From NCBI GenBank assembly GCA_944380635.1, contig CALWID010000019.1, forward strand, positions 1 through 54,605: a stretch of 54,605 nucleotides of DNA, in the 5' to 3' direction. The stretch comes from an uncultured Eubacterium sp. (GTDB lineage Bacteria; Bacillota; Clostridia; Oscillospirales; Acutalibacteraceae). The stretch's first letter is position 1. The number at the start of each line of letters is the position of its first letter. The notes beneath the pieces are model-generated. The model was given only the letters and a program-made list of their open reading frames with translations. It had not been told where the DNA came from and made no database searches. Shown here piece by piece: positions 15,864 to 46,701 of this stretch. A program made the translations under genes and the position numbers.

Positions 15864-16170
15864 TTACTTTTCCTCCTGAAAAATATTGGTGCGAGACTTT
15901 ACCGGATTTATCATTCCACCCACCCGCGTGTTTCAAGGCCGCCTATATAAAAACCGAATGACAGCATATCATTCGGGCAGCCTTTGCGCGGCAGCAGACA
16001 TACGCAAGCTATCTGCACAAAGGAATGAAAATCAGTATAATTTCGCCCGGTTTAAAATCGGACATACTCCGCCGAAATTCCCGCTCTGGGTAAAGCGCCA
16101 CCTCCGGCATCATCGCATATCTTTGCGGAAACTCTATATAGTATATTATAATATAGACCTTTCCGCAGAC
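15864..16170 (-). promoter_or_regulatory. Structured leader of the S10 operon
   Basis: About 300 nt of untranslated leader with several stable helices on the minus strand. From the 5' end: TGCGGAAA/TTTCCGCA enclosing CTATAT/ATATAG (16165-16122), a nested CCTTTG/CAAAGG plus GCAGA/TCTGC hairpin (about 16023-15980), then the terminator-like hairpin at 15976-15954. This arrangement suggests feedback or growth-rate control by attenuation. It accounts for most of the 570-nt stretch without genes here. Confidence 0.6.
15947..15976 (-). terminator. Attenuator-like terminator in the S10 leader
   Basis: Perfect 8-bp stem CCGAATGA / TCATTCGG with a 7-nt loop, followed immediately by TTTTTATAT on the minus strand, 84 nt upstream of the rpsJ start. 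Because the operon lies downstream, it must be read through, pointing to conditional termination. Confidence 0.7.
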
Positions 16171-25188: not shown

Positions 25189-25242
25189 AGATTTGTAAGC
25201 AATATTTGGCAAATTGTTTATACACTATGTAATATGACAGGA

Positions 25243-25405
25243 AAGGCAGTGTAAAAAATTACGCTGTTACTATAATACGCCTTCAAAATTTGCCTTATAT
25301 CTGATTTTGCGGTGCTGTAACCGCCGCTGGCGACTTATCCGGCTACAAATAAGGAGCCAACGATTTTATTTTTTGTTTGTAGCACGAAAGGCTATGGTGA
25401 TTGGA
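25243..25405 (+). promoter_or_regulatory. Structured leader element, copy A (CarD-like gene)
   Basis: Shares sequence and pairing with the leader at 44082-44250. Helices: AAGGC/GCCTT (25243-25247 with 25279-25283) enclosing AGTGTA/TACGCT; CAAAAT/ATTTTG (25284-25289 with 25304-25309); TGGC-CTTA/TAAG-GCCA (25328-25337 with 25350-25359). Its loop GGCTAC (25341-25346) can pair with GTAGC at 25379-25383. AACCGCC (25319-25325) faces the ribosome-binding sequence GGTGATT at 25396-25402. Together with 25016-25242 (two promoters), this explains the 390-nt stretch without genes. Confidence 0.7.
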
Positions 25406-25909
25406 ATGTATAAGATAGGTGATGTATTTGTTTACGGCGCCAACGGCGCATGTGAAATAACGGACATCAAAGAAGAAAAGTTTGCGCGGGAGACGAAAAT
25501 CTATTATATACTTTCTCCTTTTTTTGATTCGAGAGAAACGATTTTTGTGCCCGTGGACAATGAAACGCTGACGGGGAAAATGAAAAAGGTGCTTTCACGC
25601 GACGAAATCATGGAAATGATAAAATCAATACCTGAGGCGGAAACCATTTGGAACGACAATGCGAATATGCGCCGCGAGGAATACAGGAAGATAATTAACA
25701 CGGCGGACAGAAAAGAACTTGTTAAACTTTTAAAAACTTTGCATGAGCAGAAACAGAAACTTGAGGAAATCGGCAAAAATCTTTCCGTATCGGATGAAAA
25801 ATATTACAGAAAAGCGCAGAATATAATTCACAGCGAAATAGCAATGGTGCTTGAACTTGAAATGAAAGAAGTAGAGCCTTTTATTGAAAGAGTTTTAAAC
25901 GCGGCATAA
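25406..25909 (+). CDS. CarD/CdnL-family RNA polymerase-interacting regulator
   Basis: 167 residues. The N-terminal ~60 residues (MYKIGDVFVYGANGACEITDI) form the RNA-polymerase-interacting Tudor-like domain shared by CarD, CdnL and TRCF; the C-terminal part is helical, as in CdnL. Such proteins bind the RNA polymerase beta subunit and stabilise open complexes. The open frame extends upstream through the leader, and an in-frame ATG at 25394 lies inside the conserved leader motif; the ATG at 25406 is chosen because GGTGATT is correctly spaced. Monocistronic, with its own terminator. Confidence 0.88.
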   Translation: MYKIGDVFVYGANGACEITDIKEEKFARETKIYYILSPFFDSRETIFVPVDNETLTGKMKKVLSRDEIMEMIKSIPEAETIWNDNANMRREEYRKIINTADRKELVKLLKTLHEQKQKLEEIGKNLSVSDEKYYRKAQNIIHSEIAMVLELEMKEVEPFIERVLNAA

Positions 25910-29582: not shown

Positions 29583-29602
29583 AAAGTTAAGATAATTTTT
29601 GC

Positions 29603-29662
29603 GGAAAATCAGGCTGTAAATTTTAATTTATTATTTTAGCCTGAAAGGCTATGGTGATTAAT
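29603..29662 (+). promoter_or_regulatory. Leader element, reduced copy C (GNAT gene)
   Basis: Contains only the last part of the element: TCAGGCT (29609-29615) pairs with AGCCTGA (29638-29644), then AAAGGCTATGGTGATT and the start codon. This segment from AGCCTG to GGTGATT is identical to the copy upstream of the beta-mannosidase gene. The 5' hairpins and the potential pseudoknot partner are absent. Confidence 0.6.
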
Positions 29663-30085
29663 ATGGAAGAAATAAAATTTTATAAAAACGGTCTGCCCAA
29701 AGAGGCGAAAATGATTAGGACTGCCGTTTTTATTGAGGAACAGGGCTTTCGCGACGAGTTTGACGAAACGGACGACAGAAGCCTGCACGCAGTGCTTTTT
29801 ATTGACGGCAATATGGCGGGCACGGCAAGAATGTTTACCGAAGACGGCGGTAAAAGTTACCACATCGGCAGAGTAGCCGTTTTGAAAGAATACAGAAAAC
29901 TCGGCATAGGAAGCGACATTATGAACGCTCTTTGCAAAAAGGCAAAAGAACTTGGCGCGGGCAAGTGCGAACTTTCAGCGCAGTGCAGAGCAAAGGGCTT
30001 TTACGCCAAACTCGGGTTTACCGAAAGCGGAGAAATTTATCTTGACGAAGGGTGCCCGCACATATATATGGAAAAGGAATTGTAG
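29663..30085 (+). CDS. GNAT-family N-acetyltransferase
   Basis: 140 residues. Acetyl-CoA binding motif A is seen as RVAVLKEYRKLGIGSDIMNAL, preceded by VFIEEQGFRDEFDETD, typical of the YjcF/ElaA-like branch. Acceptor substrate unknown. The in-frame ATG at 29651 lies in the leader motif; the ATG at 29663 gives the family-like N terminus MEEIKFYKNG. Confidence 0.88.
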   Translation: MEEIKFYKNGLPKEAKMIRTAVFIEEQGFRDEFDETDDRSLHAVLFIDGNMAGTARMFTEDGGKSYHIGRVAVLKEYRKLGIGSDIMNALCKKAKELGAGKCELSAQCRAKGFYAKLGFTESGEIYLDEGCPHIYMEKEL

Positions 30086-32566: not shown

Positions 32567-33445
32567 TCAGTTTTCGTCATCGGTTTCATTTTTTTGCGAG
32601 TGCCTGCCTGAATCAGAGCGTTTTGAGCCGGGCGCCGAAACCACAACGCACTCATCCCTATTTACAACTATAGGCGCCGCGCCCTCAACAGAACTATCAA
32701 GCATAACCTTGAGTTTGCCCGTTACAAGCGAATAATCAACAACTGTTCCCCTGCCCTCTTTGCAATCAACTACACTGCCGCGGCGGGGGGTGATTTTTTC
32801 AAGGTAGTCATAAGAATTCTGCTCATACTGAAGGCAGCACATCAATCTGCCGCAACTGCCGCTTATTTTTCCGGGCGAAAGGCTGAGCCCCTGCGACTTT
32901 GCCATTTTTATTGAAACGGAATGGAAATCCTTTAAAAAAGTTGAACAGCAAAACGGTCTGCCGCATATGCCGAGCCCGCCTATCATTTTTGCTTCGTCCC
33001 GAACGCCTATCTGGCGCAGTTCTATACGGGTGTGAAAAGTTGAGGCAAGGTCTTTAACAAGTTCCCTGAAATCGACTCTGCCGTCCGCCGTAAAATAAAA
33101 AGTTATTTTAGAGCCGTCAAACGAATACTCAACTTCCGAAAGGCTCATATCAAGGCCGTGCTCTTTTATTTTTCCGGCGCATATATCATACGCCTCTTTT
33201 TCTTTTTCTCTGTTGCTTTCCAAAACATCCAAATCATCTTGAGTGGCTACACGCACAACGGATTTAAGCGGAGAAACAATAGAATCATCTTCCACTTCTT
33301 TATTGCCGCTTACGGCTTTGGCGCACTCTATGCCCCTTGCCGTTTCTACAACCACATACTGACCTGTGTTTATTTTAAATTTCCCGGGCGAAAAGTAATA
33401 GACCTTGCCCGAGTCCTTAAAACGCACGGAAACTATTTCTGTCAT
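32567..33445 (-). CDS. ricT: PSP1-domain protein RicT (YaaT-like)
   Basis: 292 residues, PSP1 domain with conserved cysteines in CGRPFCCSTF and CGRLMCCLQYEQ. In Bacillus, RicT with RicA and RicF binds Fe-S clusters and stimulates RNase Y-dependent mRNA processing, affecting sporulation and competence. The acidic tail is poorly conserved. It lies downstream of holB as in Bacillus. Its leader holds copy D of the structured element, and the start codon overlaps the stop of a four-codon upstream ORF. Confidence 0.93.
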   Translation of the reverse strand: MTEIVSVRFKDSGKVYYFSPGKFKINTGQYVVVETARGIECAKAVSGNKEVEDDSIVSPLKSVVRVATQDDLDVLESNREKEKEAYDICAGKIKEHGLDMSLSEVEYSFDGSKITFYFTADGRVDFRELVKDLASTFHTRIELRQIGVRDEAKMIGGLGICGRPFCCSTFLKDFHSVSIKMAKSQGLSLSPGKISGSCGRLMCCLQYEQNSYDYLEKITPRRGSVVDCKEGRGTVVDYSLVTGKLKVMLDSSVEGAAPIVVNRDECVVVSAPGSKRSDSGRHSQKNETDDEN

Positions 33446-33456
33446 TTAATCACCAT
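33442..33456 (-). CDS. Four-codon upstream ORF overlapping the ricT start
   Basis: ATG GTG ATT AAA TGA; its stop overlaps the ricT start as ATGA. The ATG belongs to the conserved leader motif. Whether it is translated is unknown; the GGTGATT ribosome-binding site for ricT lies inside it. Confidence 0.3.
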   Translation of the reverse strand: MVIK

Positions 33457-33546
33457 GACCTTTCCCGGCTGCTAATGATAAAATATATTTTAAAGTTATT
33501 GACGCCTTATCGCAGCCCTGTAAAGCGCCGACGGTTATTCAGCCAA
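33446..33546 (-). promoter_or_regulatory. Structured leader element, copy D (ricT)
   Basis: On the minus strand: AATAACC (33539-33533) faces GGTGATT (33454-33448); GCGCTTTA (33528-33521) pairs with TAAGGCGT (33509-33502); the loop GGCTGC (33517-33512) can pair with GCAGCC (33472-33467). The ATAAGGCGT and AAAGG..ATGGTGATT blocks match copy B, while the pseudoknot pair changes from GGCTAC/GTAGCC to GGCTGC/GCAGCC. Confidence 0.65.
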
Positions 33547-33552
33547 TTTAAA

Positions 33553-33581
33553 ATTATAACACTGAGAAATTCAGATGGCAA
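33553..33581 (-). promoter_or_regulatory. Candidate promoter of ricT
   Basis: Minus strand TTGCCA (33581-33576), 17-nt spacer, perfect TATAAT (33558-33553), just after the holB stop. The predicted transcript starts close to the 5' edge of the structured element. Confidence 0.7.
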
Positions 33582-33605
33582 TATAATCTTTTAATCTGTA
33601 TTAAT

Positions 33606-44045: not shown

Positions 44046-44081
44046 AGGGGCGGCAGTATTTTAGCCGCAATAGCATATGCA

Positions 44082-44250
44082 GAGGGAATTAGTGTGAAAA
44101 TTCACACTAATTCGGATTATATTACCCTCAAAATTTGCCTGCGGCATAATTTTGAGATGGCTGTAATCACCATTAACGCCTTATCAGGCTACAATAAGGC
44201 GTTGATAATTCTAATTTATTTTTGTAGCCTGAAAGGCTATGGTGATTATT
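44082..44250 (+). promoter_or_regulatory. Structured leader element, copy B (beta-mannosidase gene)
   Basis: Best-developed copy. GAGGG/CCCTC (44082-44086 with 44125-44129) encloses a perfect 12-bp hairpin (44087-44112); CAAAAT/ATTTTG (44129-44134 with 44149-44154); AACGCCTTA/TAAGGCGTT (44175-44183 with 44195-44203). The loop TCAGGCTACAA (44184-44194) can pair with TTGTAGCCTGA (44222-44232), and AATCACCAT (44165-44173) with ATGGTGATT (44239-44247), which contains the ribosome-binding site. GCCTT (44178-44182) can alternatively pair with AAGGC (44233-44237), so a single long SD-blocking hairpin competes with the pseudoknot form. Confidence 0.75.
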
Positions 44251-46701
44251 ATGAAAAAATTATCACTTGACGGGATATGGAAGATAACGCTTGACTCAAC
44301 AGGAGAATCAGTTGAATCGGAAATTCCGGTTACGGATTTTAACGCTTTTTACAAAAGCGCCAAAATAAGCGACCCGTTTTACGGCACAAATGAAAACGAA
44401 GTGCAGTTTATAGGCAAAACAGGCAAAAGTTTTGAAAGAAAATTCAATGTAAGCAGCGATATTCTGGAAAATGAAAACATAATTCTTTCCTGCGATATGC
44501 TTGACACACTCGCAGCCGTTTATATTAATTCAAAACTTATAGGCAAATCTGAAAATGCCTATGTAAAATTTGAAAAAGATATTAAAAGCGTATTAAACGA
44601 GGGCGAAAATGAGATAAAAATTCATTTTGACTCCCCTGTTGAATACATAACAAAGCGGCAGAAAGAAAAGCCGCTGCCGAAAAACAACAACGGCACGGAC
44701 GGCGCCGCATACATAAGAAAGCCTGCCTGCCACTTTGGCTGGGACTGGGGCATAAATCTGCCTGTTTCCGGCATACTCGGCAAGGTGCAGATACTTGCCT
44801 TTAACAACGAAGTCCGCGATTTTACCGTGTTTCAAAAGCATGAAAACGGAGCGGTTACTCTTGAAATAGAAACCGATATAAAAGCAGACAGAACAGGCGA
44901 ACTCACCCTGCCGAACGGCAAAAAGAATACTTTTGAAGTGAAAGACGGCACGGCGGTTATTCTGATAAGCAACCCGGAATTATGGTGGACGAGAGAACTT
45001 TCAAACAAAGAAAAGCAGCCGCTTTACACGATAAAAATAGATTCCGCGGAAAAAAGAATCGGTTTGCGCACAATAAAACTTGACCGCAAAGCGGATAAAT
45101 ACGGCCATAATTTTCGTTTTATTTTAAACGGTGTGCCGATATTTGCAAAAGGCGCGAATGTTATTCCGCCGGACGCAATGGCGGACAGAATCGACGAAAA
45201 AGCGCAAAAGAAGATAATTGACGACTGCGTTGCCGCAAACTTCAATATGATAAGAATATGGGGCGGCGGATACTACGGCAGCGATTATTTATATGACCTT
45301 TGCGATGAAAACGGCATTTTAGTGTGGCAGGATTTTATGTTTGCCTGCCTGATGTATCCGTTTTACGAAGAAAAATTTTTAAGCAATGTTTTAAGCGAAG
45401 TAAAATACAATGTGGGGCGAATTATGCACCACGCTTCCCTTGCTCTTTGGTGCGGCAACAATGAAATTGAGTTTATGTTTACATATTTGCCGGAGCAATC
45501 TGAATTAGTTAAATGGTACCGCAAATTCTTTTATGAAATCTTGCCCGCCGAAATCAGAAAGCAGGACAGAAAAACGCCTTATATAGAAACCTCCCCTATC
45601 GGCGACGGATTCAGAAAGAATATTACTGCTGACAAATGCGGCGACACCCATATGTGGCATGTTTGGCACGGCGGCAAAAATCTTAAATATTACACCAAAA
45701 GATACACCCGTTTTATGAGCGAATACGGGATGGAATCGCTGCCGTCAACAGACTGCATTGAGCAATTTGCAGATAAGGACGAAATGAATCTTTTTTCAAA
45801 AACAATGCTTCATCACCAAAAATGTCTGAGCGGCAATGCCAAAATGAAATATTACCTGCTTGAACGATATAAGGAACCGGACAAATTTGACGACCTGATT
45901 TATCTTACCGGGCTTACGCAAAGCAGGTGCGTGGGCAACGCCGCAGAGCATTTCAGGCGCAACAAGGGCAGGTGCAACGGTTCGCTGTGGTGGCAGTTAA
46001 ATGACTGCTGGGGCTGCCCGAGTTGGTCCTCCGTTGACTATTTCGGAAAGTGGAAACCGCTTATGTACGAGGCAAAAAGATTTTTCAGCCCGATTGCGCT
46101 TTCAATAAACGAATTACACGGCAACGCTGAGGTTTTTCTGCTGAACGATACGCTTGAAAGCGGAAATTATGCTGTTAAAGCAAGGATAATGGATTTTGAC
46201 GGCAAAACGCTCAGCGAAGTAAACGAAAATATCTACTCCAAGGCGGGAGAGCCGAAAAAAGCCGCCGTTATATCCGCGGCGGGATTTGACAAAAAGAAAT
46301 GCTTTATGATAGCCGAACTTTATAAGGACGGCGAAAAAATATTTGAAACAACAACCGTTTTTGCTCCCGAAAGAATGCTTGAACTTAAAAGGGCAAAAAT
46401 AAAGGCATATGTCTGCGGCAACAAGTTAACTCTTGAAAGCAGCACTTACGCAAGGTCTGTTTTTGTTGATATTAAAGGAGAAAACGCTCCTCTTTCAGAC
46501 AATTCATTTGACCTTATCCCGGGCGAACAAAAGGTAATATATCTTGAAAAAGACTGTAAAATCAATCCAAAGAGTATTTCCGTAAAATGCGTAAACAATG
46601 TTAAATCATCGCATACTGACGCCGAAAGAATCGTATATCGGCTGAAATTCTCCGCTCAGCCCGAAAACATTGCCAATATGTTTTACTACACTTTCAGTTG
46701 A
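44251..46701 (+). CDS. Family 2 glycoside hydrolase, beta-mannosidase
   Basis: 816 residues, cytoplasmic (no signal peptide). Domain order of GH2: sugar-binding jelly roll (1-~170), Ig-like (~170-275), TIM barrel (~280-600), C-terminal beta domains. The acid/base glutamate is in LWCGNNEIEF and the nucleophile in FMSEYGMESLP; WQDFMFAC is the beta-mannosidase-type motif. It removes terminal beta-mannose from mannan or N-glycan oligosaccharides. The ATG at 44251 is used rather than the in-frame ATG at 44239 inside the leader motif. Confidence 0.93.
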   Translation: MKKLSLDGIWKITLDSTGESVESEIPVTDFNAFYKSAKISDPFYGTNENEVQFIGKTGKSFERKFNVSSDILENENIILSCDMLDTLAAVYINSKLIGKSENAYVKFEKDIKSVLNEGENEIKIHFDSPVEYITKRQKEKPLPKNNNGTDGAAYIRKPACHFGWDWGINLPVSGILGKVQILAFNNEVRDFTVFQKHENGAVTLEIETDIKADRTGELTLPNGKKNTFEVKDGTAVILISNPELWWTRELSNKEKQPLYTIKIDSAEKRIGLRTIKLDRKADKYGHNFRFILNGVPIFAKGANVIPPDAMADRIDEKAQKKIIDDCVAANFNMIRIWGGGYYGSDYLYDLCDENGILVWQDFMFACLMYPFYEEKFLSNVLSEVKYNVGRIMHHASLALWCGNNEIEFMFTYLPEQSELVKWYRKFFYEILPAEIRKQDRKTPYIETSPIGDGFRKNITADKCGDTHMWHVWHGGKNLKYYTKRYTRFMSEYGMESLPSTDCIEQFADKDEMNLFSKTMLHHQKCLSGNAKMKYYLLERYKEPDKFDDLIYLTGLTQSRCVGNAAEHFRRNKGRCNGSLWWQLNDCWGCPSWSSVDYFGKWKPLMYEAKRFFSPIALSINELHGNAEVFLLNDTLESGNYAVKARIMDFDGKTLSEVNENIYSKAGEPKKAAVISAAGFDKKKCFMIAELYKDGEKIFETTTVFAPERMLELKRAKIKAYVCGNKLTLESSTYARSVFVDIKGENAPLSDNSFDLIPGEQKVIYLEKDCKINPKSISVKCVNNVKSSHTDAERIVYRLKFSAQPENIANMFYYTFS

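Follow-up and report, generated by a model that had tools for sequence, protein, structure and literature searches.

The window analysed here, a 54,605-nt stretch of DNA from an uncultured Eubacterium sp., carries genes for a beta-mannosidase-like protein, a CarD-like regulator, a RicT-like PSP1-domain protein and a GNAT acetyltransferase, each preceded by related non-coding sequence (Table 1). A sequence-only reading of the window had described a potential pseudoknot and a Shine-Dalgarno (SD)-blocking helix in front of the first three genes, and all three leaders were found at the places and with the pairings it gave. They are copies of one non-coding element of ~150–160 nt. The original observation is thus confirmed and is larger than reported: the beta-mannosidase copy, delimited by that reading as 44165..44253, begins ~75 nt further upstream with two additional hairpins (H1 and H2), and a fourth, truncated copy had not been listed.

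Table 1. Element copies, their parts and the adjoining genes in the window
Feature	Position	Strand	Basis or remark
Original SD-like AGAGGGA, left upstream of the element	44081..44087	+	sequence; excess of SDs left of H1 (65 copies)
H1 hairpin GAATTAGTGTGA/TCACACTAATTC	44086..44113	+	outer pairs join host flank to element
H2 hairpin CTCAAAATT-TGCC/GGCA-AATTTTGAG	44127..44156	+	
H3 small hairpin ATGG/CCAT	44157..44173	+	competes with outer helix P1; covaries in own genome
P1 outer helix, 5' strand AATCACCAT	44165..44173	+	
P2 hairpin AACGCCTTA/TAAGGCGTT	44175..44203	+	
Pseudoknot loop strand TCAGGCTACAA	44184..44194	+	
Pseudoknot downstream strand TTGTAGCCTGA	44222..44232	+	
GAAAGG, element-supplied, nearly invariant SD-like sequence	44231..44236	+	AAAGG counts in full copies
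P1 outer helix, 3' strand ATGGTGATT	44239..44247	+	followed 3 nt later by the start codon
Beta-mannosidase-like glycoside hydrolase family 2, downstream gene	44251..46701	+	Pfam
Second copy, H1 to P1	25245..25402	+	sequence, model R1
Old SD-like ACAGGAAAGG of second copy	25237-25246	+	
CarD-like regulator, downstream of second copy	25406..25909	+	Pfam, scanned from in-frame residue at 25412
Third copy, diverged, H1 not recognisable	33446..33588	-	sequence, model R1
PSP1-domain protein (RicT-like), downstream of third copy	32567..33445	-	Pfam
Fourth copy, truncated: loop-strand/downstream-strand pairing and ribosome site only	29591..29661	+	model matches
GNAT acetyltransferase, downstream of fourth copy	29663..30085	+	Pfam

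Copies and distribution of the element

Three observations show that the resemblance among the leaders is not due to chance. The 16-mer AAAGGYYATGGTGATT has 47 matches (at most one mismatch) in the window's own genome (G000; 2.0 Mb), as against none for the reversed control; model R1, whose training set included all three window leaders, scored those of beta-mannosidase, ricT and carD at E=1e-29, 2e-17 and 1e-16, respectively; and the same model recovered copies in other genomes with E down to 1e-28. The own genome holds 58 matches to the element model at E<0.001. A model search of related genomes, which the sequence-only reading had proposed, found copies in 28 of 36 other genomes sampled from the genus, with copy numbers ranging from 0 to 55 per genome, and in 0 of 23 genomes sampled from other families of the same order. 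With many similar non-coding copies, restriction to one lineage, and both occupied and empty sites, the element has the features of a small interspersed structured repeat. Tandem copies are present, which fits new copies landing downstream of a resident copy's ribosome site, and some sites in the own genome retain solely the element's 16-nt ribosome site. A phage or plasmid origin was considered and rejected, as the exact H2 pattern was not found in viral_contigs, and one copy from genome G015 had no match in plasmids or phages at E<=1e-5. A literature search returned no description of the element, which is weak evidence of absence given that subscription journals lie largely outside its coverage.

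Covariation and folding

Comparison of the copies shows a conserved predicted fold, comprising H1, H2, P2, the pseudoknot and the outer helix P1. Across 146 copies, the pseudoknot strands form 7.98 pairs with their own partners, compared with at most 7.13 in 200 shuffles, and they covary inside the own genome as well (7.39 vs. a shuffle maximum of 7.06), while the P2 hairpin in 120 copies gives 6.11 pairs against a shuffle maximum of 5.34; both structures are therefore evolutionarily maintained, as first proposed. The outer helix is likewise maintained. Among 49 own-genome copies it is not copy-specific (own mean 6.63, shuffled mean 6.44, largest shuffle 6.73), since the strand that holds the ribosome site is almost constant there, and its covariation is clear only between species, where 94 copies can be sorted by their 3' strand into six types and an exact complement of at least 7 nt matches the copy's own type in 64 cases and another type in one. 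These P1 tests were carried out without an alignment, since in some copies P1 is out of register in alignment A2, built with model R1. The small hairpin H3 covaries in the own genome, yet H3 as the sole use of CCAT was rejected, given that P1 is maintained across species. Energy folding gave support to the beta-mannosidase copy alone (z -6.3, with 0/200 shuffles as good) and was weak for the carD (z -1.7, 10/200) and ricT (z -0.5, 54/200) copies. Part of the covariation could stem from DNA hairpins formed in transposition, rather than from RNA function. Neither the window element nor eight further loci matched any Rfam family at gathering score, in keeping with the earlier judgment that this is not a described riboswitch class; weak Rfam listings of rpsL_ricks and of microRNAs were far below the cut-off and were discarded.

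Insertion between the Shine-Dalgarno sequence and the start codon

Eleven sites occupied in G015 (purC and ten more) could be located in its close relative G004, and because nine of these are empty there, the genome comparison shows the element to be mobile; the purC site is empty in outgroups too. Eight of the nine empty-site junctions lie directly ahead of a start codon, and seven of these eight empty sites contain an SD-like sequence. At the U32 peptidase site no clear SD was seen in the empty state, and at the rfbB-like site, one of the nine, the junction is hidden by an alternative left module. Host genes, often housekeeping (e.g. purC, proS, gyrB, metH, dnaB, ricT-like), recur only rarely from species to species: an all-against-all comparison of 160 downstream proteins, obtained from 171 copies of which 11 gave none, yielded 12 cross-species matches, five at 65–96% identity and seven at 26–38%. 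The mobile leader that the sequence-only reading had entertained as an alternative is thus upheld, and the general signal or regulon it had also suggested is not, as the genes that the element precedes differ between species.

Nearly all copies examined are in sense orientation, an ORF follows in 140/147 copies, and in 97/147 it starts exactly 3 nt after the element. Together with the junctions, an excess of SD sequences of at least 5 nt within 16 nt left of H1 (41/65 copies vs. 64/650 upstream control windows) shows the insertion position to be the gap between a gene's SD and its start codon, where insertion separates the old SD from that codon. In the own genome, and only there, comparison of older copies shows the old SD near background and the element's GAAAGG retained: among 42 copies without H1, an old SD of at least 6 nt occurs in 7% (control 5%), with matches of at least 5 nt slightly over control (38% vs. 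28%). The 39 other-species copies in which no H1 was recognised still show an excess of the old SD (at least 6 nt, 26% vs. 8%). The element's own site is nearly invariant, with AAAGG in 49/53 full copies of the own genome and 97/99 elsewhere. The usual 16S end, CCUUUC, is complementary to GAAAGG, which lies ~14 nt from the start codon, a long distance for an SD; no 16S gene was found in the own assembly in which a changed tail could be sought. The proposed SD-blocking by the outer helix needs revision, as its GGTGAT strand occurs in 16/99 other-species copies and in most other species the P1 3' strand (ATGTGAATT, ATGGGAATT, ATGGAAATT) is not SD-like; what remains is that GAAAGG, just before it, is predicted to be able to pair with GCCTT of the P2 hairpin.

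The left end of the element is often GTGTG, whose first base varies with its pairing partner, and the host left flank forms copy-specific pairs with an internal arm that differs between near-identical copies. In the DNA around copies, the right half was at its normal distance for 91/92 H2 sites, and no longer version was seen in that DNA. An autonomous version near five loci sharing an alternative left flank (L127, L145, L188, L125 and L028) was rejected, since the surrounding ORFs differ; a recombinase-like ORF occurs at only one of them.

A proposed mobile ribosome-binding site and competing readings

We consider it probable that these leaders are non-coding mobile elements of ~150–160 nt that insert into the gap between SD and start codon and replace the ribosome site. 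An ordinary MITE or REP-like repeat, inserting loosely and cleared from other positions by selection, seems unlikely. In size, folding and copy number the element resembles typical small interspersed repeats, and Y1 transposases occur in 21/41 genomes; yet harmless intergenic insertions should survive, and nearly all copies adjoin an ORF start. Using assumed boundaries in 66 copies, we found no clear terminal inverted repeats (the longest word of the left end that recurs in the reverse-complemented right end averaged 4.71 vs. 4.20 for shuffled ends, little above chance), and target duplications of at least 3 nt, with the left edge movable by 2 nt, in 9% as compared to 14% of shuffled sequences, none reaching 4 nt. 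Over 41 genomes, no mobilising gene was found among the three types compared: Y1 had no match in G000, G015 and G021, the three highest-copy genomes, or in G034; reverse transcriptase occurred in nine genomes, with one weak match in G000 and none in the draft genomes G015, G021, G023 and G034; and IS110 (DEDD) transposase occurred in one (G021). As presence did not track copy number by eye, all three were rejected as mobilisers. IS200/IS605 elements and their MITEs have hairpin ends, make no target duplication and recognise their target through base pairing to a guide that the element carries; the present element likewise has hairpin ends and no target duplication, but differs in the side and order of its putative guide, and Y1 was not found in the three highest-copy genomes.

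Other small repeats offer partial parallels. The bcr1-type repeats of the Bacillus cereus group (100–400 bp) are likewise high-copy, lineage-restricted and mobile, and some bcr repeats have conserved RNA structure and are transcribed in UTRs; their mobility is tied to a TTTAT motif (PMC3446304, PMC6542083). Our element resembles bcr1 in being small, high-copy, lineage-restricted, mobile and structured, and differs from bcr1 as described there in inserting between SD and start codon and supplying a ribosome site. BOX, RUP and SPRITE of Streptococcus pneumoniae are likewise short, interspersed and structured, and can change the expression of genes with which they are co-transcribed; BOX and RUP carry terminal inverted repeats and are flanked by target duplications (PMC3049150), neither of which was found here. 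TAACTGA repeats of marine Beggiatoaceae, reported as abundant directly 5' of start codons of genes without evident common function, are direct repeats of 7 nt that look little like an SD, unlike an element of ~155 nt with a pseudoknot (PMC4679880).

An intron-like or ribosome-bridging insert, spliced out or folding so that the old SD stays by the start codon and insertion is neutral, is in our view quite unlikely. Group II introns begin with GUGYG, which GTGTG resembles, the pairing of host flank with internal arm is copy-specific, SD-to-start spacing minus the element would be normal by eye at the compared sites, and the other-species copies without a recognised H1 keep the old SD enriched. 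Against this stand the own-genome copies without H1, in which the old SD is near background and GAAAGG is kept, the change of the first base of GTGTG with its partner, the lack of an Rfam intron at gathering score in the window element or the eight further loci, and the lack of a reverse transcriptase match in the four draft genomes. We regard it as very unlikely that the element is a riboswitch or protein-binding leader passed on vertically, with its genes a regulon under a general signal. The element is indeed a conserved structured leader, with a pseudoknot beside the ribosome site, two exclusive folds and compensatory changes. Translational riboswitches of the preQ1 and SAM-II types have a pseudoknot at the ribosome site and anti-SD-like alternatives, features that the element shares; unlike them, it is mobile, has no pathway link and no Rfam match at gathering score. 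Its host genes are not those of one pathway, inherited together, and with nine of 11 sites lacking it in a close relative, few host genes common to several species, and 0 to 55 copies within one genus, vertical inheritance appears largely refuted. A leader-peptide attenuator, in which translation of a small ORF within the element starts from the old SD, is extremely improbable: the frame is open past the loop in 30/63 copies with a recognisable H1 start (e.g. the beta-mannosidase copy), but among these 63 (of 152 with leader) the frame from H1 start to loop is spread 22/22/19, and no conserved reading frame was found.

If the leaders are indeed mobile ribosome-binding sites, GAAAGG would take over from the lost SD, and the gene would be translated from the element's site. 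The RNA may then choose between a pseudoknot state, with P2 and the loop pairing formed and GAAAGGC free, and one long hairpin built of P1, GCCTT/AAGGC and the loop helix, in which the ribosome site would be hidden. On/off switching by the element RNA is possible on this model, and the element would thereby set, perhaps conditionally, the translation level of its new gene. We would guess that a trans-acting enzyme moves it, and that each insertion is accompanied or soon followed by a rewriting of the short H1 arm that faces the host flank. More tentatively, it may represent a new class of mobile element targeting the translation-initiation site, which recognises the SD-start gap, rewrites its own left arm per site, installs a structured and possibly switchable ribosome-binding site, and leaves 16-nt scars of that site that spread one signal over unrelated genes. 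As a rule, mobile elements either persist at a distance from genes or disrupt them; the present one lies within a few bases of start codons and appears to replace the ribosome-binding site of host genes, raising the question of what recognises the SD-start gap. Should the switch be real, a single element could, by spreading, bring dozens of unrelated genes within a species under a common translational control. The element is carried by the cultured strains Eubacterium coprostanoligenes ATCC 51222 and Ruminococcus bromii ATCC 27255, which makes it testable.

Architecture and conserved fold of the mobile leader

The element, a non-coding leader, reads from the left as the host gene's old Shine-Dalgarno (SD) sequence, hairpin H1 (core TAGTGTGA/TCACACTA), a linker near GATTATATTGCC, hairpin H2 (CTCAAAATTTGCC/GGCATAATTTTGAG) and the 5' strand of the outer helix P1, followed by hairpin P2, an AT-rich linker, the strand that forms a pseudoknot with the P2 loop, GAAAGGC, the 3' strand of P1, about 3 nt and the start codon. 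Re-reading all three leaders of the sequence-only reading confirmed their positions and pairings, and a scan for a shared 16-mer revealed a fourth copy in the window (Table). The genes behind the four copies encode a family-2 glycoside hydrolase (beta-mannosidase type), a CarD-like protein, a PSP1-domain protein, which we take to be RicT-like, and a GNAT acetyltransferase. No Rfam family reached its cut-off at these copies, in agreement with the initial reading, which recognised no described riboswitch class in the leader; elsewhere in the window, an S10-Clostridia ribosomal protein leader was barely above its threshold (35.3 bits vs. a cut-off of 35.1). A leader-peptide reading was rejected, as the element contains no conserved reading frame.

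Coordinates of the element copies and associated features
Feature	Sequence	Position	Strand	Remark
Fourth copy	window	29644		upstream part truncated
S10-Clostridia leader, RF03136	window	16043-16121	minus	sole gathering match to Rfam in the window
Tandem copies	own genome (G000), contig C29	3992, 4147, 4306		spacing about 152-159 nt
Tandem copies	G000, contig C21	18013, 18172		spacing about 152-159 nt
Tandem copies	G000, contig C4	82573, 82725		spacing about 152-159 nt
Weak reverse-transcriptase match	G000, contig C20	46746-47132		994-aa open frame; 32.8 bits; sole match in own genome
Piece related to the alternative left module (L028)	G000, contig C29	near 3950		
Serine-recombinase-like protein	locus L206 (genome G015, contig C40)	978-2417	minus	named from sequence; upstream of a copy bearing the alternative left module

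In a 20-copy alignment, 88.7% of the cells in the structure formed by H2, H3, P2 and the pseudoknot were paired, with two-sided changes in 30 cells vs. a shuffle mean of 12.4, and one pseudoknot pair (alignment columns 86/130) was A-U in nine copies and G-C in nine. An alignment-free set comprised 171 copies, 152 with a leader (53 from the own genome, 99 from other species) and 19 without, and both strands were obtained for 146 of the 152 (six dropped). The proposal that pseudoknot positions change together was upheld, a copy's own strand pairing at a mean of 7.98 of 10 positions vs. a maximum of 7.13 in 200 between-copy shuffles (n = 146), as was that for hairpin P2 (6.11 vs. at most 5.34; n = 120). 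Covariation of P1, likewise proposed, was seen across all copies (7.64 vs. a shuffle maximum of 6.86; n = 146) and was convincing in other species (8.14 vs. 7.44; n = 97), whereas within the own genome it did not exceed the shuffles (6.63 vs. 6.73; n = 49). Six exact types of the P1 3' strand accounted for 94 of the 146 copies (ATGGTGATT, 35; ATGTGAATT, 31; ATGGGAATT, 17; ATGGAAATT, 7; ATGGAGATT, 3; ATGCAAATT, 1), the other 52 being untyped. In 64 of these 94, the 5' region contained 7 nt or more of perfect complementarity to the copy's own type, and in one to another type, the rest having shorter matches; among own-genome copies of the ATGGTGATT type, 9 of 21 carried the own-type complement. 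Energy folding agreed with this structure at z -6.3 in the beta-mannosidase copy and z -5.9 in a G015 copy minus its last bases, and was hardly supportive for the carD (z -1.7) and ricT (z -0.5) copies. The GCCTT of P2 has two potential partners, one inside P2 and the other the AAGGC of the ribosome site, which would give two mutually exclusive folds.

The right half lay at its normal distance behind 91 of the 92 H2 sites in the sequence retrieved, and the last site (L132) also has this half, which an additional base hid from the search pattern; no longer, gene-carrying version was seen among these 92 sites. By eye, the copies seen from G006, G007, G029, G035 and G036, and likewise from G026 and G030, carry a different hairpin near CGCTCAGTTTGTCGC/GCGACAACGAGCG in place of H2. 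Instead of H1, L127, L145 and L188 (genomes G015, G021 and G009) share a different left module, which has a hairpin of its own (GACCGCT...AGCGGTC) and to which pieces of L125 and L028 are related, suggesting module exchange or a second repeat family. No counterpart of the serine-recombinase-like frame at L206 appeared among the ORFs listed for the other loci read.

Insertion between the ribosome-binding site and the start codon

Empty and occupied versions of the same site were compared between species. At purC, the element is present in G015 and absent in G004, G034, G000, G009 and G027, among others; since the empty G004 site reads CAGGAGGAATATTAAAATG, the insert is placed between SD and start. 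Twelve further G015 genes, named from translated starts rather than by family search, were sought in G004, G034 and G009, and ten were located in G004, giving 11 G015/G004 sites in total, of which nine are empty in G004 and two (an aroQ-like gene and the gene of L129/L191) are occupied in both. The junction lies directly ahead of the start codon in eight of the nine empty sites (purC, proS, U32 peptidase, metH, hflX, gyrB, dnaB and the gene of L123), and seven of these eight carry an SD-like sequence there, the U32 peptidase gene having a coupled stop-start instead. This SD-like sequence is degraded in the occupied copy at dnaB; at metH, the upstream gene overlaps and had its end cut by the insertion. 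The ninth site, rfbB-like (L127), has the alternative left module and an undefined left junction. The L137 gene was comparable only with G034, where it is empty, and yicC is reversed, being occupied in G004 and G021 and empty in G015.

A reading frame was found behind 140 of 147 copies (five of 152 dropped), exactly 3 nt past P1 in 97. Downstream proteins from 160 of the 171 copies gave 12 cross-species matches, five being clear orthologs at 65-96% identity and seven at 26-38%. In the tandem arrays on C29 and C21, every new copy follows immediately after its predecessor's ribosome site, which agrees with the prediction of an insertion-behind-ribosome-site rule. Neither clear terminal inverted repeats nor target duplications were found in 66 copies with assumed boundaries. 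Reverse transcriptase, Y1 transposase and IS110 transposase were each rejected as mobiliser, as their presence, judged by eye, does not track copy number.

Near-loss of the old ribosome site in the own genome and retention of the new one

Where H1 was recognised (65 copies), 41 had an old SD match of at least 5 nt within the 16 nt preceding it; of 650 control windows taken farther upstream, 64 did. With a 33-nt window and matches of at least 6 nt, the SD was found in 55% of own-genome copies with H1 (n = 11; control 7%) and 7% of those without recognised H1 (n = 42; control 5%), and in other species in 33% with (n = 57; control 5%) and 26% without (n = 39; control 8%); a looser 5-nt cut gave 38% vs. 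28% for the 42 older own-genome copies. These percentages speak for loss of the old SD among the older copies of the own genome but not for a general loss. AAAGG was kept in 97 of 99 full copies from other species and in 49 of 53 from the own genome, the latter figure being partly built in, as 28 of the 53 were found via this motif. The P1 strand of own-genome copies is mostly GGTGATT, itself SD-like; GGTGAT occurs in 33 of 53 own-genome copies, a figure also partly built in, vs. 16 of 99 others.

Sequence comparison shows insertion between SD and start, a conserved fold, retention of the new site and, in older copies of the own genome, a nearly lost old SD. GAAAGG would pair with the 16S tail and drive translation; the usual tail sequence was used, and no 16S was found in the own-genome assembly. 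Splicing out the element, or bridging back to the old SD, would keep the original site in use; replacement of the ribosome site is read as more probable than either, because the old SD fades in older own-genome copies while AAAGG persists. At a number of own-genome sites only the ribosome site is left, and the 16-nt site AAAGGCTATGGTGATT stands without a recognisable leader at L002, L003, L011, L012, L013, L014 and L018, either as worn-out copies or as 5'-truncated insertions.

Distribution, published repeats and the variable H1 arm

In the own-genome assembly (2.0 Mb, 47 contigs), the 16-mer gave 47 matches at no more than one mismatch and its reversed control none; by eye, 28 have a leader, and 19 no recognisable one or a remnant only, one of the 19 (L034) lacking a reading frame behind it. 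The proposed covariance-model search of related genomes, run with a model (R1) trained on 20 of the 28, found copies beyond the window: 77 own-genome matches at E <= 1 and 58 at E < 0.001, one of the 58 being the reverse strand of another copy. Over 60 genomes, under stricter filters that lose weak matches, R1 hit the own genome and, at 1 to 25 matches per genome, 28 of 36 congeners; all 23 genomes from other families of the order were without a match. A sample of 200 genomes from 135 genera of the family gave matches in eight genomes of six genera, three of the eight being the own genome and two congeners. Among named assemblies, 73 stretches have the exact H2 pattern, its carriers including Eubacterium coprostanoligenes ATCC 51222, Ruminococcus bromii ATCC 27255, Clostridium sp. 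CAG:678 and Clostridium sp. CAG:217; the pattern was not found in viral contigs, and one G015 copy used as query matched no plasmid or phage.

The literature searched, with subscription journals mostly outside its coverage, yielded no published description naming the element. Among its nearest published relatives are the small interspersed repeats bcr1 to bcr18 (PMC3446304, PMC6542083) and BOX, RUP and SPRITE (PMC3049150) and, in position alone, the TAACTGA repeats that precede start codons in Beggiatoaceae (PMC4679880); in the portions of these descriptions compared, none joins SD-start insertion with a supplied pseudoknotted ribosome site.

Three to four nt of the H1 right arm face the host flank, and across 67 copies the arm matched its own flank more often than other flanks (85, 72 and 67% vs. 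46, 41 and 35% at offsets 2, 3 and 4), with none of 2000 shuffles as good. In 11 near-identical same-genome pairs, which are not independent, six being among four G021 copies, 26% of the arm positions differ, against 3.6% in the body. Guided targeting, imperfect-palindrome correction or rapid selection could each be the source of this pattern. Flank matching is extreme in L177 (G034), whose H1 forms an unbroken hairpin of 18 bp that extends far into the left flank.
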